The notes under the pieces were generated by a model, which made no database searches, was not told the origin of the DNA, and saw only the letters and a list, made by a program, of their open reading frames with translations. The translations under genes and the position numbers were made by a program. A DNA stretch of 64,000 bases from Leptotrichia sp. oral taxon 218 (GTDB lineage: Bacteria > Fusobacteriota > Fusobacteriia > Fusobacteriales > Leptotrichiaceae): the NCBI RefSeq assembly GCF_018128225.1, contig NZ_CP072377.1:1302001-1366000 (forward strand), read 5' to 3'. Within the stretch, counting starts at the first letter, position 1, and each line of letters opens with the position of its first letter. This document shows positions 12,807-40,952 of the stretch, one piece after another.

Positions 12807-13802
12807 TTATATTTCACAATCTCCCAAAGTTGCCACCATCACAGCCTTTATCGTATGCATACGATTTTCTGCTTCATCAAATACAACAGAATTTTTACTT
12901 CTGAAAACTTCATCAGTAACTTCCATTTCTTTCAAACCATATTCTTTTTCAATATTTTTCGCAACTTTCGTATTTAAATCATGAAACGCTGGTAAACAGT
13001 GCATAAATAAGTAATCGTTTGAACAATGCTTAACTAAATCAGCATTTACCTGGTATGGAAGCAATTTATCGATTCTTTCTTTCCAAATTTCTTTTGGTTC
13101 TCCCATCGACACCCAAACATCAGTATAAACGACATCGGCATTTTTCACACCTTCAATTTTATCTTCTGTCAACAAAATTTTTCCGCCAGTTTTTTCAGCA
13201 ATTTTTTTAGCTTCTTCAACTAATTTTTCTTCAGGAAAATATTCTTTCGGACAAACAATTCTAAAATCCATTCCAAATTTGGCAGCACCAATCATTAAAG
13301 AATTTGCCATATTATTTTTTCCATCGCCTAAAAATGCGAATTTTATTCCTTTCAATTTACCTTTTTTCTCTGTAATTGTCAAAAAATCCGCCAAAATCTG
13401 TGTTGGATGAAACTCAGTTGTAAGTCCATTCCAAACAGGCACTCCCGAATGTTCAGCCAAAGTTTCGACCAATTCTTGACCGTAACCTCGATATTCGATT
13501 CCATCATAAAATCTTCCCAAAACTTTTGCAGTATCTTCCATAGATTCCTTATCTCCAATTTGTGATGCAGAAGGCCCAATGTAAGTGACATTTGCCCCTT
13601 GGTCATAAGCTCCCACTTCAAACGCACATCTCGTTCTAGTAGAAGTTTTCTCAAAAATCAAAGCGATATTTTTTCCAACCATCATTTTTTTCTCAGTCCC
13701 ATTTTTCTTATCTATCTTCAATTTTTTCGCCAAATCCAGTAAATACTGCAATTCCTCTGTTGTAAAATCTAATAATTTTAAAAATGATTTTCCTTTTAAC
13801 AT
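12807..13802 (-). CDS. argF: ornithine carbamoyltransferase
   Basis: 331 aa, typical OTC length. Carbamoyl phosphate + ornithine gives citrulline. The carbamoyl-phosphate loop is [19 protein letters not shown] (STRT, residues ~52-70), the second block [12 protein letters not shown] is intact, and the ornithine/cysteine loop is [10 protein letters not shown]. Good SD (AAGGAGAAATT). It is the last gene of the argC-J-B-D-(exported ORF)-F cluster, ~98 bases after the exported ORF. It could be expressed from the operon or a local promoter. HCLP rather than a catabolic-only feature does not decide biosynthetic versus catabolic use, but gene context favours biosynthesis. Confidence 0.97.
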
Positions 13803-13899
13803 AATTTCTCCTTAATTTTTATTTTTTATAATATCATAAACAAAAGATTCTGTCCCTTGCTATTATTTAATTTTGCCAATTTTTATTTATAACTATATA

Positions 13900-14442
13900 T
13901 TAATTTTTTATTCTATAATATTCTTTCAATATATCTTTCTCAATTTCTTTCAATTTTTGTCCATTCTCAACAATCTTTTTATTCTCACCTATATACCGAA
14001 TCAATTTTTCATTTTCATCAAAATAGTATCGTTGTTCAGAAAATTTCGATTTTCTTTTATCAAAAACTTCTCCATTTTTTAGCTTATTGTCTTTATACCA
14101 CTTAGAATCCACATAATATGGCACATTATATTTTTCAGACTTATCAAAAATAAAATAAACTTTTCTATTTTTTACATAATATTCTGTCAAACTATTCCAA
14201 CTTTCTCCAAAATGTTCAACTACAATTTTTTTAACAATTCCATTTTGCAAATAATATTTCACAACGCCACCATCTGTACTTTGCTCTGAATCTTCAACTT
14301 CCTTAATAACATAATTTTTCACAGCATTAGTACTTTCAAAATCTTTCCTAATCTGAGCAATTTTCCCTTCGATATTCGACGCACCAAAATTCATCAAACT
14401 TACCAAAAGAAAAAGTATCGCAATTTTTCTAAAGGTTTTCAT
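13900..14442 (-). CDS. exported protein of unknown function inside the arg cluster
   Basis: 180 aa with signal peptide MKTFRKIAILFLLVSLMNFGAS and an AAGGGAG site. The mature protein contains repeated short beta-hairpin-like units (VKYYLQNGIVKKIVVEHFGE, LTEYYVKNRKVYFIFDKSEKY, EQRYYFDENEKLIRYIGEN), reminiscent of the 'toxin-antitoxin YwqK/MORN-like' or DUF-type beta repeats of periplasmic proteins. I do not recognise a named family. It is co-oriented between argD and argF with gaps under 100 bases, so it is probably co-transcribed. No enzymatic role in arginine synthesis is evident. Confidence 0.6.
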   Translation of the reverse strand: MKTFRKIAILFLLVSLMNFGASNIEGKIAQIRKDFESTNAVKNYVIKEVEDSEQSTDGGVVKYYLQNGIVKKIVVEHFGESWNSLTEYYVKNRKVYFIFDKSEKYNVPYYVDSKWYKDNKLKNGEVFDKRKSKFSEQRYYFDENEKLIRYIGENKKIVENGQKLKEIEKDILKEYYRIKN

Positions 14443-14531
14443 AAAAATCTCCCTTTAACTCTAAATTTTTTCATTCTTTCAGTATAATTTTACCTTAATA
14501 ATTTTTAATTTACAATTATAATTTGCAATTA

Positions 14532-15725
14532 CTAAAAAGAAATTTTTTCAAAAACTTTTTCCAAAATCGAAATAGCTTTGTCAATTTCCTCGTTTGTTAC
14601 ATTAAATGGTGGAAAAAATCTCACAACATTATTTCCAGCTCCAACTAGTAACAACCCATTTTCTAATGCTTTTAAAACAACATCTTTTGCCAAAACTTTT
14701 TTCTCATCAAATTTTATTCCTAAAAGAAGTCCTTTTCCACGAATTTCTTCGATAAAATCAAATTTTTCCTTTAGTTTTTTCAATTTTTCCACAGAATACT
14801 GACCTTTTTCCACAACATTTTTTTCAATTAATTTGTTGTCAATTAATTCATGTAAAACAGCATTTGCAACGGCACAAACTAAAGGATTTCCTCCGTAAGT
14901 TGAACCGTGGTCACCAGGAACTAGCACGTCGTTTGCCTTTCCTTTTGTCAAACAAGCTCCGATTGGAACTCCGCCACCAAGTGATTTTGCAATTGTAACT
15001 ATATCTGGAATTAAATCAAAATTTTCATAGGCAAATAATTTCCCAGTTCTTCCCATTCCGCATTGAATTTCGTCAAAAATTACAAGTGTATTATATTTTT
15101 CACTCAATTCTTTTATAGCTTCCATAAATTCAGGAGTAGCACTTTCAAGTCCGCTTTCTCCCTGAATTGGTTCCAAAATAATAGCAGCAGTTTTTTCGCT
15201 TACTTTTGCTTTTAAATCTTCAACATCATTAAAATTACATTCTGTAACATTTTTCATCAATGGCTCAAACGGTTTTTGATATTTCGGCTGACCTGTGACT
15301 GCCAACGCTCCAGTACTTCTTCCATGAAATGAATTTTTCATATAAATTATTTCTGTTTTATCAGCAATTTTATTTCCATTTTCATCGTATGACAAATTAT
15401 TCCCATATTTTCGAGCAATTTTTAAAGCCAACTCAATCGCTTCAGTTCCACTGTTTGTAAAAAAAACGCTTTCCATTTCACTATTTTCCGTAAGTTTATT
15501 TGCCAAATCCAATTGTGGTTGACTGTAATACAAATTAGAAATATGCACCAATTTCTGACTTTGCTCCGTCAAAGCCTTTGTAATCACAGGACTTGCGTGT
15601 CCCAAGCAATTTACTGAAATTCCCGACACAAAATCCAAATATTCATTTCCTTCATTATCGTAAATATATGTTCCTTTTCCTTTTTCAAAAATTTTATTAT
15701 AACGGCTATATACATTTAATAACAT
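14532..15725 (-). CDS. argD: acetylornithine aminotransferase
   Basis: 397 aa class III PLP aminotransferase. The Lys-containing motif is IVTIAKSLGGGVPIGACL (Schiff-base Lys in AKSLGGG), preceded by VIFDEIQCGMGRTGKLFAYE. The N-terminal FTNSGTEAIELALKIAR and GNPLVCAVA blocks match ArgD rather than GabT. Converts N-acetylglutamate semialdehyde to N-acetylornithine with glutamate as donor. Weak SD (GAAGTGATTGA) before ATG. Lies after argB (115-base gap) in the arg operon. Confidence 0.95.
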   Translation of the reverse strand: MLLNVYSRYNKIFEKGKGTYIYDNEGNEYLDFVSGISVNCLGHASPVITKALTEQSQKLVHISNLYYSQPQLDLANKLTENSEMESVFFTNSGTEAIELALKIARKYGNNLSYDENGNKIADKTEIIYMKNSFHGRSTGALAVTGQPKYQKPFEPLMKNVTECNFNDVEDLKAKVSEKTAAIILEPIQGESGLESATPEFMEAIKELSEKYNTLVIFDEIQCGMGRTGKLFAYENFDLIPDIVTIAKSLGGGVPIGACLTKGKANDVLVPGDHGSTYGGNPLVCAVANAVLHELIDNKLIEKNVVEKGQYSVEKLKKLKEKFDFIEEIRGKGLLLGIKFDEKKVLAKDVVLKALENGLLLVGAGNNVVRFFPPFNVTNEEIDKAISILEKVFEKISF

Positions 15726-15840
15726 TCAATCACTTCTTTCTTAATTTTTTTAGAAAATATTCGACAATTTTCTAGTTTTTAATTTCAAAATTTTTATAAA
15801 ATATTTTTACTTTTAAGATATTTTCTTTTTTCAAATAATT

Positions 15841-16731
15841 TTAATCCTCTAAATTTGCATCTTTCTTAATCAATGTTCCAGCCCCTTCGACTGTAAACAA
15901 CTCAAGAATTACAGAATGTTCCAATTTACCATTTAGAATAACAACATTTTCCACTCCATTTTCAATTGCATTCAAGCAAGTTGTAACTTTTGGCAACATT
16001 CCGCCACTAATAATTCCTCGCTCGATTAAATCGTTCACTTTTTCCACATCGATTTCATCAATAAGCGTCTGTTTATTGTTATAGTCAAGCAAAATTCCAT
16101 CAACATCTGTCAAAAATATCAATCTATCCGCTTGTAATTTTCCAGCAATTGCACCTGCCACATAATCTGCATTAATATTGTATGTCTGACCATTTTTGTC
16201 AACTCCAATTGAAGAAATCACAGGAATCGTATCATTCGACTCCAATAATTTTATAACTTCCGTATTAATTTCCTTAATCTCTCCGACAAATCCAATATCA
16301 ACCTTTTCTCCATCAACTTCAACAAACTTCTTCTCAACAAAAACCATATTTCCATCTTTTCCACTAAGACCAACAGCTTTTCCGCCATATTTATTGATGT
16401 CTGACACAATTCCTTTATTAACTTTCCCAGAAAGCACCATTTCCACAATTTCCATCGTTTCTTCATCAGTCACACGATTTCCTGCAATAAATTTGCTTTC
16501 TTTTCCAATTTTTTGAAGCATCTCGTTTATTTCAGGCCCTCCACCGTGCACAATCACAGGATTTATTCCAACATATTTCATAAGAACCACATCTTGAATG
16601 AACTGTTCCCGAGCAACAGGATTAACCATCGCACTTCCGCCATATTTAATAACAATCGTTTTATTATGATATTTTTTTATAAAAGGCAACGCCTTTACTA
16701 AAATTTTCGCTTTATCTAAATTTGAAATCAT
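15841..16731 (-). CDS. argB: acetylglutamate kinase
   Basis: 296 aa amino-acid kinase fold. Glycine-rich IVIKYGGSAMVNP at the N-terminus and the VIVHGGGPEINEML block mark N-acetylglutamate kinase; LTDVDGILLD and GGMLPKV are also intact. Catalyses the second (committed, often arginine-inhibited) step. The N-terminal ~20 residues ahead of the KYGGSAM block (ISNLDKAKILVKALPFIKKY) match the amphipathic helix present in hexameric, arginine-sensitive enzymes; sensitivity is an inference. Good AAGGGAAAAT ribosome site. Confidence 0.96.
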   Translation of the reverse strand: MISNLDKAKILVKALPFIKKYHNKTIVIKYGGSAMVNPVAREQFIQDVVLMKYVGINPVIVHGGGPEINEMLQKIGKESKFIAGNRVTDEETMEIVEMVLSGKVNKGIVSDINKYGGKAVGLSGKDGNMVFVEKKFVEVDGEKVDIGFVGEIKEINTEVIKLLESNDTIPVISSIGVDKNGQTYNINADYVAGAIAGKLQADRLIFLTDVDGILLDYNNKQTLIDEIDVEKVNDLIERGIISGGMLPKVTTCLNAIENGVENVVILNGKLEHSVILELFTVEGAGTLIKKDANLED

Positions 16732-16873
16732 ATTTTCCCTTTCTTTTATTAAAATTTTTCTTATTTTTTTAGTTTTTCAAAAATTTAATTTTATAAATAA
16801 TTCTTTTAAAAAATTATCTTGAAAAATCTACTAACAAAAAATTCTTAAAATCATAAATTTATTTTAAAAATTA

Positions 16874-18148
16874 TTAAGTATGATACTCCGCATTAATTTT
16901 CACATAATCATAACTCAAGTCACATCCCCAAGCAGTCGCTTCAAACTCTCCATCATTTAATTCAATAATTATTTCAACAGTTTCAGCCTTTAAAATTTTC
17001 TCAGCTTTTGGAATATCAAAATCCTGTGCCATCCCATTTTTCGCAACTTGAACCATATCATTTCCAGCTTTTAAGAAAATATTAACTTTATCAATCATCA
17101 AATCAGCTTCTGAATATCCAACCGCACACAAAATTCTTCCCCAATTTGGATCACCACCAAAAACTGCCGCTTTAAAAAGACTTGAAGTGATAACTGATTT
17201 TGAAACTTTTTTTGCATCTTTTAGCGTTTTTGCTCCATTTGTTGTAACTTGAATCAATTTTGTTGCACCTTCTCCATCTTTCGCAATTAATTTAGCCAAT
17301 TCTTCATTCACTTTGTATAACGCCTTTTTAAACTCTTCATATCCAGCTGAATTTTCATCAACAATTTTTTCATTCCCTGCAAGTCCGTTCGCCAAAACGC
17401 AAGCCATATCGTTTGTGCTTGTATCTCCGTCAACTGAAATCATATTGAAAGTGTTGTCAGCAATTTCAGAAAACATTTTTTGCAACAAAGATTTTTCAAT
17501 ATTTACATCAGTTACAGTAAATGAAAGCATTGTCGCCATATTTGGATGAATCATTCCTGAACCTTTACACATTCCAGCCACTTTCGCCTTTTTCCCAGCA
17601 ATTTCAATTTCCAAGCAAATTTGTTTAACAAAGGTGTCAGTAGTCATAATCGCAGTAGCCGCATCAATTCCGCCATCTTCCGACAAATTTTCCACAACTT
17701 TTTCAATCCCGTTCTCAATTTTTTCCATATCAAGCTGAACCCCAATAATTCCAGTCGACTGAACCAAAACTTCCTCAGCACTCAATCCCAATTTATTCGC
17801 AACCAGCTTAGTCATCTTTTTAGCATTCGCAAGTCCAGTATCTCCCGTGCAAGAATTTGCATTTCCACTATTTACTACAATCGCCTGTGTATTCTCATTT
17901 TTTATATGCTTGATATCCAAAATAATTGGTGCAGCCTTTGCCAAATTTTTTGTAAAAACCGCAGCTGAAACCGCCTTTTCCTCACTATAAATCAAAGCCA
18001 TATCTTTTTTTCCACTTTTTTTCAATTTTGCTGATATTCCAGTCGCTTTAATCCCTTTAACATCAGTAATTGTTCCATTTTCTATTATTTTCATATAACT
18101 TTTGTATGATAAATAATTTTTAATTATTTTATAAAAATTATGAATCAC
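16874..18148 (-). CDS. argJ: bifunctional ornithine acetyltransferase / N-acetylglutamate synthase
   Basis: ArgJ recycles the acetyl group from N-acetylornithine to glutamate. The autocleavage site is visible as GMCKGSGMIHPNMATMLSF (cleavage before the Thr of ATML), which splits the precursor into alpha and beta chains. The usual N-terminus starts at MKIIENGTITDVKG (ATG at 18094), but no ribosome site precedes it. The GTG at 18148 has an AAAGGAG site three bases away and adds an 18-residue lysine/tyrosine-rich extension. I report the GTG start with low certainty. The gene follows argC with a ~60-base gap. Mono- versus bifunctionality cannot be read from sequence; with no argA/argE visible here the bifunctional form is plausible. 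Confidence 0.95.
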   Translation of the reverse strand: MIHNFYKIIKNYLSYKSYMKIIENGTITDVKGIKATGISAKLKKSGKKDMALIYSEEKAVSAAVFTKNLAKAAPIILDIKHIKNENTQAIVVNSGNANSCTGDTGLANAKKMTKLVANKLGLSAEEVLVQSTGIIGVQLDMEKIENGIEKVVENLSEDGGIDAATAIMTTDTFVKQICLEIEIAGKKAKVAGMCKGSGMIHPNMATMLSFTVTDVNIEKSLLQKMFSEIADNTFNMISVDGDTSTNDMACVLANGLAGNEKIVDENSAGYEEFKKALYKVNEELAKLIAKDGEGATKLIQVTTNGAKTLKDAKKVSKSVITSSLFKAAVFGGDPNWGRILCAVGYSEADLMIDKVNIFLKAGNDMVQVAKNGMAQDFDIPKAEKILKAETVEIIIELNDGEFEATAWGCDLSYDYVKINAEYHT

Positions 18149-18208
18149 ACGCTCCTTTCTTTTTTATCTGTAAAAACCTATTAATAAAATCTTATTAACA
18201 AAATATTT

Positions 18209-19258
18209 TTATAAATACATCGACAAAAATTCCAATCCTTCATTTTCATTAAATCCAAATAAAATGTTCATACTCTGAACTGCTTGTCCACCAGCACCTT
18301 TTATCAAATTATCAATCGCCGATACGACAACAATGTTCCCATATTCCTTGTCATATCGAACCCCAATCTCACAAATATTACTATTTTTCACATTTTTTAT
18401 CTCTGGCAAATTTTCAGTAACTCTCACAAAATACTCATTTTTATAAAATTCATTATAAATTTCATAAATTTTTTCTTCCGTCAAACTTTCCTTAAACTCA
18501 TCCTTCACATCCAAATAAATTGTCGAAAGAATCCCTCTATTTATTGGTAACAAGTGCGGAGTAAATACTAAATTAATATCCCCATTCGATAATTTATCCA
18601 TCTCTTGTTTTATTTCAGGCGTGTGTCTATGTTTCAAAATGTTATAAGCCTTAAAATTTTCATTAACTTCAGCATAAATTAAATCCAATTTAGCACTTCT
18701 TCCAGCCCCTGAAACTCCTGACTTCGAATCAACAATAATTTTTTTCGCATCAACAAGCCCATTTTTTAGTAACGGTGCCACGCCTAAAATAGCAGAAGTG
18801 GGATAACATCCAGGCGAAGCCACAACCTTCGTATTTTTAATTTTTTCCTTATAAATTTCTGGAAGTCCGTAAACTGCATTTTGATTGATTTCTGGATAAT
18901 TATGTTTCACTTTATACCATTTTTCATATAATTTAGAATCGTCTAATCTAAAATCTGCTCCCAAATCTATAACTTTTACATCTTTCTCCAAAGCTAATTT
19001 TGTTATATCTTCCGATATTCCATGAGGCAAAGCTAAAAATAAAACATCAATTTTCTCCAAATTCTCCTTAACTTCTTCAATCGAAATCAATTTTTTCTCA
19101 AAATATTTCTTATAATTTTTATAAATATCTCCAATATTTTCCCCCGCAAACGAATGCGATGAAATAAATTCTATTTCAACCTCTTTGTGATTATTTAAAA
19201 TCCATAATAATTGCTGTCCAGCATAACCTGTTGCTCCTACAATTCCTGCTTTTATCAT
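18209..19258 (-). CDS. argC: N-acetyl-gamma-glutamyl-phosphate reductase
   Basis: 349 aa. The N-terminal Rossmann motif is GIVGATGYAGQQLL, the catalytic cysteine lies in VASPGCYPTSAILG, and the C-terminal IKGAGGQAVQSMNIL is diagnostic. NADPH-dependent reduction of N-acetylglutamyl phosphate. Excellent ribosome site (TAGGAGGAAAAAAT). First gene of the arg operon; its ~230-base leader holds a small peptide gene and a terminator (see separate entries), so expression is probably attenuated. Confidence 0.97.
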   Translation of the reverse strand: MIKAGIVGATGYAGQQLLWILNNHKEVEIEFISSHSFAGENIGDIYKNYKKYFEKKLISIEEVKENLEKIDVLFLALPHGISEDITKLALEKDVKVIDLGADFRLDDSKLYEKWYKVKHNYPEINQNAVYGLPEIYKEKIKNTKVVASPGCYPTSAILGVAPLLKNGLVDAKKIIVDSKSGVSGAGRSAKLDLIYAEVNENFKAYNILKHRHTPEIKQEMDKLSNGDINLVFTPHLLPINRGILSTIYLDVKDEFKESLTEEKIYEIYNEFYKNEYFVRVTENLPEIKNVKNSNICEIGVRYDKEYGNIVVVSAIDNLIKGAGGQAVQSMNILFGFNENEGLEFLSMYL

Positions 19259-19287: not shown

Positions 19288-19307
19288 AAAACCATTTTAC
19301 TGGTCTT
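19288..19307 (-). promoter_or_regulatory. small hairpin just upstream of the argC ribosome site
   Basis: On the minus strand AAAGACCA-GTAAAA-TGGTTTTTTT folds into a 7-bp stem (one G-U pair) followed by seven T. It sits ~15 bases before the argC SD and after the main leader terminator. It could be a second weak terminator or an element that masks argC translation. Seen by eye only. Confidence 0.4.
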
Positions 19308-19344
19308 TTTCTTTAAATATTTAAATATTTTCAAACTAAAATAA

Positions 19345-19380
19345 GAAAAAGAGCCAATAATCCTAAAATTACTGACTCTT
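19345..19380 (-). terminator. leader terminator (attenuator) of the arg operon
   Basis: On the minus strand AAGAGTCAGTAAT (19380-19368) pairs along 13 bp with ATTATTGGCTCTT (19361-19349) around a 6-base loop, with two G-U-type pairs and a T5 run after it. It lies between the leader ORF and argC, ~90 bases before the argC start. A strong intrinsic terminator between an operon promoter and its first gene implies conditional read-through. Confidence 0.75.
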
Positions 19381-19403
19381 ATATTAATTTTCAAGAAATA
19401 TTA

Positions 19404-19487
19404 AAAAACCAGCAACGACAAAGGATCGCTTAAATAAGTTGTTTTATTATTTTGACTTTCCCTTATCCTAACAACTAATTTCATAAT
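19404..19487 (-). CDS. putative arg-operon leader peptide (27 aa)
   Basis: An ATG at 19485 (approximate feature ends include the stop) with a perfect GGAG nine bases upstream (ATAGGAGTGAAATATT) opens 27 codons and ends at TAA. The peptide begins MKLVVRIRES, with two Arg codons AGG-ATA-AGG, and ends YLSDPLSLLVF. Arg elsewhere in this window is mostly AGA, so the AGG pair is unusual. The codons for LVV (AGTTGTT) can pair with AACAACT 32 bases later, looping out the Arg codons. It lies between the operon promoter and the terminator upstream of argC. A translation-coupled attenuator sensing charged tRNA-Arg is the simplest reading; the structure has not been computed. Confidence 0.6.
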
Positions 19488-19542
19488 ATTTCACTCCTAT
19501 TTTTTATTATTTTAATTTATTATTTACTTTTTTGATATTAAT

Positions 19543-19571
19543 AATATATCACATTTTCTTTTTAATTTCAA
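19543..19571 (-). promoter_or_regulatory. argC: promoter of the arg operon
   Basis: Minus strand: TTGAAA (19571-19566), 17-base spacer, TATATT (19548-19543), with TGTGA directly before the -10, an extended -10 context also seen at other promoters of this window. It is ~50 bases upstream of the leader-peptide SD. No ARG box could be identified with confidence. Confidence 0.65.
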
Positions 19572-19613
19572 TAGATTTAAATATATAAATTTTATATAGT
19601 TAAATATATATTA

Positions 19614-19662
19614 TTTATCTTTTATCTTTTATCTTTTGTCTTTTGTCTTTTGTCTTTTGTCT
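19614..19662. repeat. seven tandem heptanucleotide repeats
   Basis: Three copies of TTTATCT are followed immediately by four copies of TTTGTCT (49 bases, no gaps). They lie in the ~500-base region between gmhA and the arg promoter, ~42 bases upstream of its -35. The two variants suggest duplication of a unit after a point change. Copy number may vary between strains. The rest of 19259-19767 holds the leader elements and AT-rich DNA with no other gene. Confidence 0.9.
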
Positions 19663-39749: not shown

Positions 39750-40952
39750 TTATTTATGTTTTTTATAAGCTCTTATTCTGTTTGGAAGTGAGAATAATTT
39801 TATAAATCCTTCTGCATCTTTATGGCTATATAATTCGCTTGCTCCAAATGATGAAATTCCTTCGTCATAAAGCGCAAAATCAGTAAATCTTCCGGCGATT
39901 TTTATGCTTCCTTTGTATAATTTTAATTTTATTGTACCATTTACATTTTTTGAAGTTTCCTCAACAAAAGCGTCAAGTCCTTCACGAAGCGGTGTGAACC
40001 ATTGTCCAGCATAAGTCAAATCAGCATATTTTCTTGAAACTAATTTTTTGAATTCAAATGTATCCTTGTCAAAAATCAGTGTTTCCAAATCTTTTAACGC
40101 TTCCATAAGAAGTGTTCCACCTGGAGTTTCATAAATTCCACGAGATTTCATTCCAACAAGTCTATTTTCAACGATATCAATAACTCCGACTCCATTTTCT
40201 CCTGCAATTTTATTTAATTTTCTAAGCAAGTCAACTGGTTCCAAAGCTTCTCCGTCAACTTTAATTGGCCAACCTTGCTCAAAAGTAATTTCTACATAAG
40301 TTGGTTTATCTGGTGCTTTTTCAGGCGGTGTTGTCATCACATAGACAATATCTTCCTTGTGTTCATTTTCAAGACCTTCAATATCTCCACCTTCGTGTGA
40401 AATATGCCATAAATTTTGATCTCTTGAATAAATTTTTTCTTTTGTAACATTTATTTTTATGTCAAATCTTTGAGCGTAATCAATTGCATCTTCTCTTGAT
40501 GAAATGTCCCAAATTCTCCACGGAGCTATAATTTGAATTGTTGGATCTAATGAAAATACACCTGTTTCAAATCTAACTTGATCATTTCCCTTTCCTGTAC
40601 ATCCGTGACAAATATATTTTGCTCCTTCTTTATGAGCAACTTCTACAAGTGTTTTTGAAATTAATGGTCTTGCAAAAGATGTTCCCAGTAAATATTTATT
40701 TTCATAAACTGCTCCGGCTCTTAATGCACGAAATGCGTAATCTTTTACAAATTCTGCTTTTTTATCTTCTACATAAACTTTAGAAGCTCCTGATTCAATT
40801 GCTTTTTGCTTTACAGCGTTCATATCTTCGTCTTGTCCCACATCTACACAACAAGCGATTACTTCTAAATCATAGTTATTTTTTAACCAAGGTATGATAA
40901 TTGATGTATCTAATCCACCTGAATAGGCTAATACTACTTTTTCTTTTGCCAT
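39750..40952 (-). CDS. argG: argininosuccinate synthase
   Basis: 400 aa from the ATG at 40952 with an AAGGAG site. The ORF extends 159 codons further upstream, but that stretch is the antisense of the M24 peptidase gene and includes no family similarity, so I trimmed it. P-loop [47 protein letters not shown] and [17 protein letters not shown] are intact. Makes argininosuccinate from citrulline and aspartate. Encoded separately from the argCJBDF operon; argH is not in the window. Confidence 0.97.

Follow-up and report, generated by a model that had tools for sequence, protein, structure and literature searches.

A probable arginine leader-peptide attenuator with tandem terminators before the arg genes of Leptotrichia and other Fusobacteriota

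The arginine biosynthesis genes of Leptotrichia sp. oral taxon 218 are preceded by a short, AGG-rich leader ORF and two terminators, an arrangement in which arginine shortage would stall ribosomes on the leader and thereby turn the genes on. This is very probably a genuine arginine attenuator, classical in kind but serving a new amino acid, spread widely through a phylum mostly without ArgR and equipped with tandem terminators. Arginine biosynthesis is a textbook case of repression by ArgR; in Fusobacteriota leader peptides often seem to take over this role. The DNA analysed (hereafter the window) is a stretch of 64,000 nucleotides, and the comparisons extend to 13 genomes of the genus and 98 of the phylum.

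Architecture of the arg leader

All features of the locus lie on the minus strand (Table 1). An earlier note on this DNA had described a promoter with a TGTGA extended −10, a Shine–Dalgarno (SD) site, a 27-codon ORF containing AGG-ATA-AGG and a terminator with a T run, and each of these is present. The −35 hexamer TTGAAA (19571–19566) is separated by a 17-nt spacer from the −10 hexamer TATATT (19548–19543), which TGTGA (19553–19549) precedes, so that the TG-extended promoter matches the consensus at 10 of 12 positions. A promoter scan found no excess of promoter-like sites (4, against 5.5 in shuffles), so its score by itself carries no significance; the case for the promoter rests on its position and on its conservation in relatives.

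As judged from the sequence, a short ORF with its own SD site stands between the promoter and argC, with AGG codons at 19469–19467 and 19463–19461, and a predicted intrinsic terminator separates this ORF from the first gene. Terminator 1, AAGAGTCAGTAAT-TTTAGG-ATTATTGGCTCTT followed by T residues, has 14 pairs as the scan counts them, three of them G-C; the scan found this one terminator where shuffles led us to expect 0.0. Terminator 2 is absent from the consensus terminator scan of the window and came from a separate automatic scan. The genes downstream make the amino acid that the leader would sense (argC, argJ, argB, argD and OTC), and their order and common strand suggest that argC-argJ-argB-argD-ORF-argF (12807..19258) forms one operon.

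Table 1. Features of the arg leader and of the genes downstream (positions in the window)
Feature	Position	Strand	Basis or remark
Block TTATATATTTAAATCTATTGA overlapping −35	19568..19588	−	Pattern search of genus genomes
Promoter TTGAAA-17-TATATT, TG extension	19543..19571	−	Sequence, relatives' alignment, promoter scan
Shine–Dalgarno GGAG of leader ORF	19494..19497	−	Sequence; alignment with nine relatives
Leader peptide gene MKLVVRIRESQNNKTTYLSDPLSLLVF, 27 codons	19401..19484	−	Sequence, alignment, codon counts
Region 1, GATAAGGGA; second AGG and last base of first	19459..19467	−	Folding, conservation tally
Region 2, TCCTTTGTC; forms a helix with region 1 in the fold without a ribosome	19417..19425	−	Folding, tally
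Region 2b, GTTGCTGGTTTTTT; pairs with terminator 1 5′ arm (predicted antiterminator)	19403..19416	−	Folding
Terminator 1 (regions 3 and 4), 13–14 bp	19349..19380	−	Terminator scans
Region 4 and T tract; complementary to region 5	19343..19357	−	Complementarity, folding
Region 5, AAGAAAAAGACCA; terminator 2 5′ side, complementary to region 4	19301..19313	−	Complementarity, folding
Terminator 2, −5.7 kcal/mol (weak by itself), then T run	19288..19307	−	Terminator scan
argC	18209–19258	−	Start at 19258; above curated cut-off
argJ	16874–18148	−	Above curated cut-off
argB	15841–16731	−	Above curated cut-off
argD	14532–15725	−	Above curated cut-off
Unnamed ORF, 180 aa	13900–14442	−	Between argD and argF
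argF/OTC (ornithine carbamoyltransferase)	12807–13802	−	Above curated cut-off

Arginine codons and the tRNAs predicted to read them

Codons for the regulated amino acid are both enriched and conserved in the leaders. Every one of the 57 AGG triplets within the first 13 codons (39 nt) of 25 leaders falls in the frame of the ORF, and Arg accounts for 86 of the 325 codons there (57 AGG and 29 AGA). AGG makes up 66% of these Arg codons versus 6.7% (35 of 523) in the window, a background drawn from this single genome and comprising the 41 ORFs of at least 200 aa, with 523 Arg among 16,697 codons. Against the attenuation reading, the window leader carries only two Arg codons and most of its relatives three to five.

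The tRNA set was read in the window genome only, where 44 tRNA genes were found, including one each for tRNA-Arg(UCU), tRNA-Arg(ACG) and tRNA-Arg(UCG). No tRNA-Arg(CCU) was found among the 44, although 150 of 180 first-look candidates were scored, which leaves some room for a missed tRNA. On this count AGG and AGA would share the single tRNA-Arg(UCU), with AGG read by wobble.

Conservation in the genus and the phylum

An argC gene is present in 10 of the 13 genus genomes, and all 10 keep the promoter, the Arg-rich leader ORF and the terminators, which supports the attenuation layout proposed in the earlier note. G003, G009 and G010 have neither an argC match nor a leader core and retain argG. 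Invariant in the ten genus leaders are ATG AAA and AGG ATA AGG GA; conservation of the peptide is strong only in this N-terminal Arg part, and the C-terminal half varies. Within each genus sub-clade, gaps in the first part of the ORF are of 3 nt. Closer to its 3′ end the leaders no longer share a frame (G011 versus the rest of its sub-clade), and in G001 the peptide stops at 13 aa.

In the phylum, argC was matched in 36 of 98 genomes, 30 of which were fetched upstream of argC (G064 and G065 were left out; for G052 and G059 the analysis covered the DNA before argG and argH only, and for G072 and G063 that before argG only). Of these 30 fusobacterial genomes, 26 carry an Arg-rich leader ORF immediately upstream of argC, in a listing that admitted only ORFs with an SD-like site. 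The attenuation reading thereby survived the check that the earlier note had named, namely that the peptide or terminator might prove not to be conserved. In G057, G053, G075 and G076, inspection by eye of the final 560 nt, argC start included, revealed no leader. The peptides, which share descent, differ by group (MKMIRRIRD, MIKFIRRIRE, MMFRISRTRR, MLLRNFRI and MRRYRRIR), and AGG persists throughout.

A pattern for the peptide core occurs in 12 of the 98 phylum genomes, once in each and always just upstream of argC, against one occurrence of the reversed control. A pattern scan of genome contigs, aimed at leaders in other phyla, gave 46 places, of which three are leader-like, all three in Leptotrichiaceae (L103, L111 and L143), where the call was made by translation and SD and an exact core was used, so that divergent leaders would escape; a few other short ORFs with SD-like sites among the 46 were set aside as unlike the leader. 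We rejected the idea of a second leader copy in the window genome: besides the arg site, a DNA search gave 49 short partial matches, almost all of them confined to the A+T-rich 110 nt that open the query.

Leaders also occur in other arrangements. G053 and its sister G052 each carry an argH-argG-argC run, and the argH that heads it is preceded by an AGG-containing leader (MRSRYN...) with a hairpin recognised by eye. In G066 MRKNRMRYRKN lies before argH; no convincing leader was found in G057 and G059. In all five of these genomes argH was recognised by eye, without a family search. No leader was seen in the window before argG (about 39768–40952), nor was a convincing one found in the 20 upstream regions of argG that were fetched, one of them merely 170 nt; argG follows argH, again recognised by eye, in at least 4 of the 20. 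G068 and G070 each have a further Arg leader (MLRESFRGSRS and MLRRNYRQK) downstream of the first attenuator and upstream of argC, and inspection by eye showed a hairpin and T run after it. Serial Arg leaders before argC were noted at L032, L034 and L035, in G068, G070 and apparently G066.

ArgR was not found in the window genome, and a single one of the 98 phylum genomes, a class-level outgroup, has a match above the family cut-off, with two weaker matches below it. A peptide attenuator of this kind, which the earlier note had regarded as unusual in a fusobacterium, is thus not a single oddity. Leader-peptide attenuation is apparently a common form of arginine control in Fusobacteriota.

Folding models of the proposed switch

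Folding points to alternative helices that could couple translation of the leader to termination. The earlier note had proposed that a 7-bp inverted pair, AGTTGTT (19476–19470) and AACAACT (19443–19437), forms a hairpin around the Arg codons, but shuffling the ORF yields at least one pair of this kind in 24% of cases and the pairing is not kept in aligned relatives, so we discarded it as a chance-level match. The helix conserved at the Arg codons is a different one, GATAAGGGA:TCCTTTGTC (19467–19459 with 19425–19417), which the earlier note had missed along with the second terminator (19307–19288). In ribosome-free models the Arg-codon stretch at least partly pairs downstream in all 25 minimum-energy folds, with details differing; G066, which has a single terminator after its nearer leader, was omitted from the 25-leader analyses. 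For the 8-bp core of the 1:2 helix, GATAAGGGA:NCCYTTRTY, 136 of 136 cells are paired across 17 of 17 Leptotrichiaceae leaders, against 45–84 when slid, a tally that is supportive and falls short of covariation proof because the 5′ arm is invariant and the 3′ arm was picked by pattern, which is partly circular.

Upstream pairing of the terminator 5′ arm was modelled on RNA extending up to that arm. Its mean was 0.29 in free RNA, 0.70 when a ribosome was placed at the last AGG (a shuffled region 2 already gives a mean of 0.45) and 0.24 when it was placed at the stop codon. The stalled value exceeded the free value in 23 of 25 leaders (the exceptions being G087 and G044) and the stop-codon value in 23 of 24 (the exception being G001), and only 11 of the 25 individually beat 95% of shuffles. 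The corresponding values for the window are 0.35 free, 0.75 stalled and 0.25 at the stop codon, with a shuffle fraction of 0.08. The modelled ON fold of the window also engages region 2, whose CCT pairs with AGGAT in the loop of the terminator; region 2 would thus be contested between region 1 and the antiterminator.

When both terminators are forbidden, the cost is lower in the stalled than in the free state in all 25 leaders, and in the window the ON fold costs 3.9 kcal/mol stalled versus 6.1 kcal/mol free, both being comparisons made without a shuffled control. At equilibrium, with a ribosome at the last AGG, complete terminator 1 keeps a probability of more than 0.5 in 22 of 25 leaders; in the window the value is 0.96 both free and stalled. 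Because terminator 1 mostly wins at equilibrium even in the stalled state, equilibrium folding is no proof of the switch, which must rely on the order of folding during transcription.

Two terminators follow the ORF in 20 of 26 leaders by automatic scan and in 5 more once the first is set by hand. Terminator 1 was hand-set in seven genus genomes; an interrupted T run had hidden it from the automatic scan in five of them. With a ribosome modelled at the last AGG, the probability of terminator 2 in the window drops from 0.99 to 0.37; it is 0.11–0.33 when stalled in G001, G007, G005 and G004 and about 0.9 or more in the other 20 leaders. The 3′ arm of terminator 1 and the 5′ arm of terminator 2 (4:5) have a complementarity of −7.8 kcal/mol within clades versus −5.9 kcal/mol between them, strong in Leptotrichia, G078 and G079 and weak in several other groups. 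Clade permutation gave p = 0.0005 for 4:5, p = 0.0013 for 2:3 and p = 0.0036 for 1:2, computed over nine clade units that we picked, that are not fully independent and that are too different to align. The tandem terminators may therefore be coupled. The modelling suggests that stalling disarms both as a chain in at least part of the genus, and this is the least certain part of the scheme.

Proposed mechanism and alternative explanations

We consider it highly likely that the arg genes are controlled by classical ribosome-mediated transcription attenuation that senses charged tRNA-Arg. When arginine is plentiful, the ribosome would pass AGG-ATA-AGG, reach the stop codon and cover region 2/2b; terminator 1 would then form, and terminator 2 would stop leaked polymerases before argC. 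When arginine is short, the ribosome would stall at AGG and cover region 1, which would leave region 2/2b free to capture the 5′ arm of terminator 1 together with its loop and let polymerase enter argCJBD-argF. If the leader were untranslated, region 1 would pair with region 2 and the terminators would form. In a coupled version of this model, stalling would favour 2:3 and then 4:5, disarming both terminators, the OFF state would consist of 3:4 and 5:6, and in some genomes two complete attenuators in series would sharpen the switch. The broadest form of the proposal, in which the arginine makers of the Fusobacteriota do without ArgR and combine a family of AGG attenuators with a lone tRNA-Arg(UCU), coupled terminators and serial attenuators that sharpen the switch, is tentative, and we rate it somewhat below an even chance.

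An arrest peptide, in which the Arg-rich nascent chain itself stalls the ribosome on free arginine or ornithine, is quite improbable. SpeFL and the fungal arginine attenuator peptide exert control of this arrest type, and the peptide encoded here is indeed short and rich in Arg, its RIR(D/E) core being nearly invariant in Leptotrichiaceae. However, the Arg codons lie mostly at positions 4–12, where the chain would barely have entered the tunnel, the sequence beyond them varies (and is cut short in G001), and we found no conserved nascent peptide long enough for the exit tunnel of the kind expected for a SpeFL-type mechanism. Moreover, AGG is kept across peptides as dissimilar as MMFRISRTRR, MLLRNFRI and MRRYRRIR, and a stall at high arginine would, in such a layout, presumably turn biosynthesis on at the wrong time.

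Slightly less probable still is that the terminators are constitutive and the ORF a by-product, with control exerted by a regulator that binds at the promoter. What speaks for it is an A+T block of 20–21 bp at the −35, found at the arg promoter in all 10 argC-bearing genus genomes and at only 2 other places in the 13 genus genomes (0 for the reversed-pattern control), with a pattern derived from those same 10 promoters. The block may be an UP element or an operator. Promoter control by itself fits poorly with AGG codons that are frame-locked across dissimilar leaders, with terminators placed 3′ of the ORF in the leaders examined and with an Arg-codon stretch that pairs downstream in every one of the 25 folds; it could, however, coexist with attenuation. 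A T-box or metabolite riboswitch, which a leader of more than 200 nt with terminators might suggest, is scarcely credible, since the conserved element is the ORF, the window has no Rfam match at gathering score and a T-box covariance model was positive in 0 of 13 genus genomes versus 5 of 14 control genomes.

Relation to known systems

Ribosome-mediated attenuators are known for the trp, his, leu, thr, ilv and phe operons. The arg leader shares with them leader codons for the regulated amino acid, predicted nested 1:2, 2:3 and 3:4 pairings and a terminator before the first gene, and differs in its amino acid, arginine, and in its host phylum, Fusobacteriota. Unlike the classical systems, the leaders described here mostly have two serial terminators, with 4:5 complementarity in some clades, and some genomes carry two attenuators in series. 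A literature search by title and start of abstract, with most subscription papers outside its scope, found, among the papers listed, no arginine leader-peptide attenuator of arg biosynthesis genes and none in Fusobacteria.

Three described systems come close. In the Salmonella speF leader, pausing at two consecutive Arg codons of orf34 at low arginine selects an alternative mRNA structure (PMC6386406). Pausing at Arg codons in a small upstream ORF would be common to both, but orf34 controls ornithine decarboxylase by way of Rho and RNase G and not through an intrinsic terminator ahead of arginine biosynthesis genes (PMC6386406). In Staphylococcus aureus, rbfL senses arginine through pausing at rare AGA/AGG codons read by the scarce tRNA-Arg(UCU) (PMC13009471). 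The arg leader would share with it this pairing of rare codons and tRNA as the sensor; in rbfL, however, the pause blocks the rbf ribosome binding site and lowers translation at low arginine, which is not transcription attenuation of arg genes (PMC13009471). For a uORF candidate in the Rhodobacterales cysS leader, read-through on stalling has been proposed; the likeness lies in amino-acid codons within an upstream ORF of a structured leader, and the difference in the amino acid, cysteine, and the host, alphaproteobacteria (PMC8632094).

With these leaders the Fusobacteriota gain a predicted layer of arginine control and, in their coupled tandem terminators and serial attenuators, a possible new layout. 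They also offer a natural test of why leader peptides choose a codon that lacks its own tRNA.

Additional observations

Between gmhA and the arg promoter, positions 19613–19662 (minus strand) hold short direct repeats recognised by eye (agacaaaa and agataaaa units), which were not noticed by eye upstream in the other genus genomes printed. The 180-aa ORF matches no NCBIfam family at E 0.001 and has, by eye, a signal-like N terminus. At G072:C2:1646310-1646981 the argC match falls in two adjacent pieces, possibly a decayed gene.
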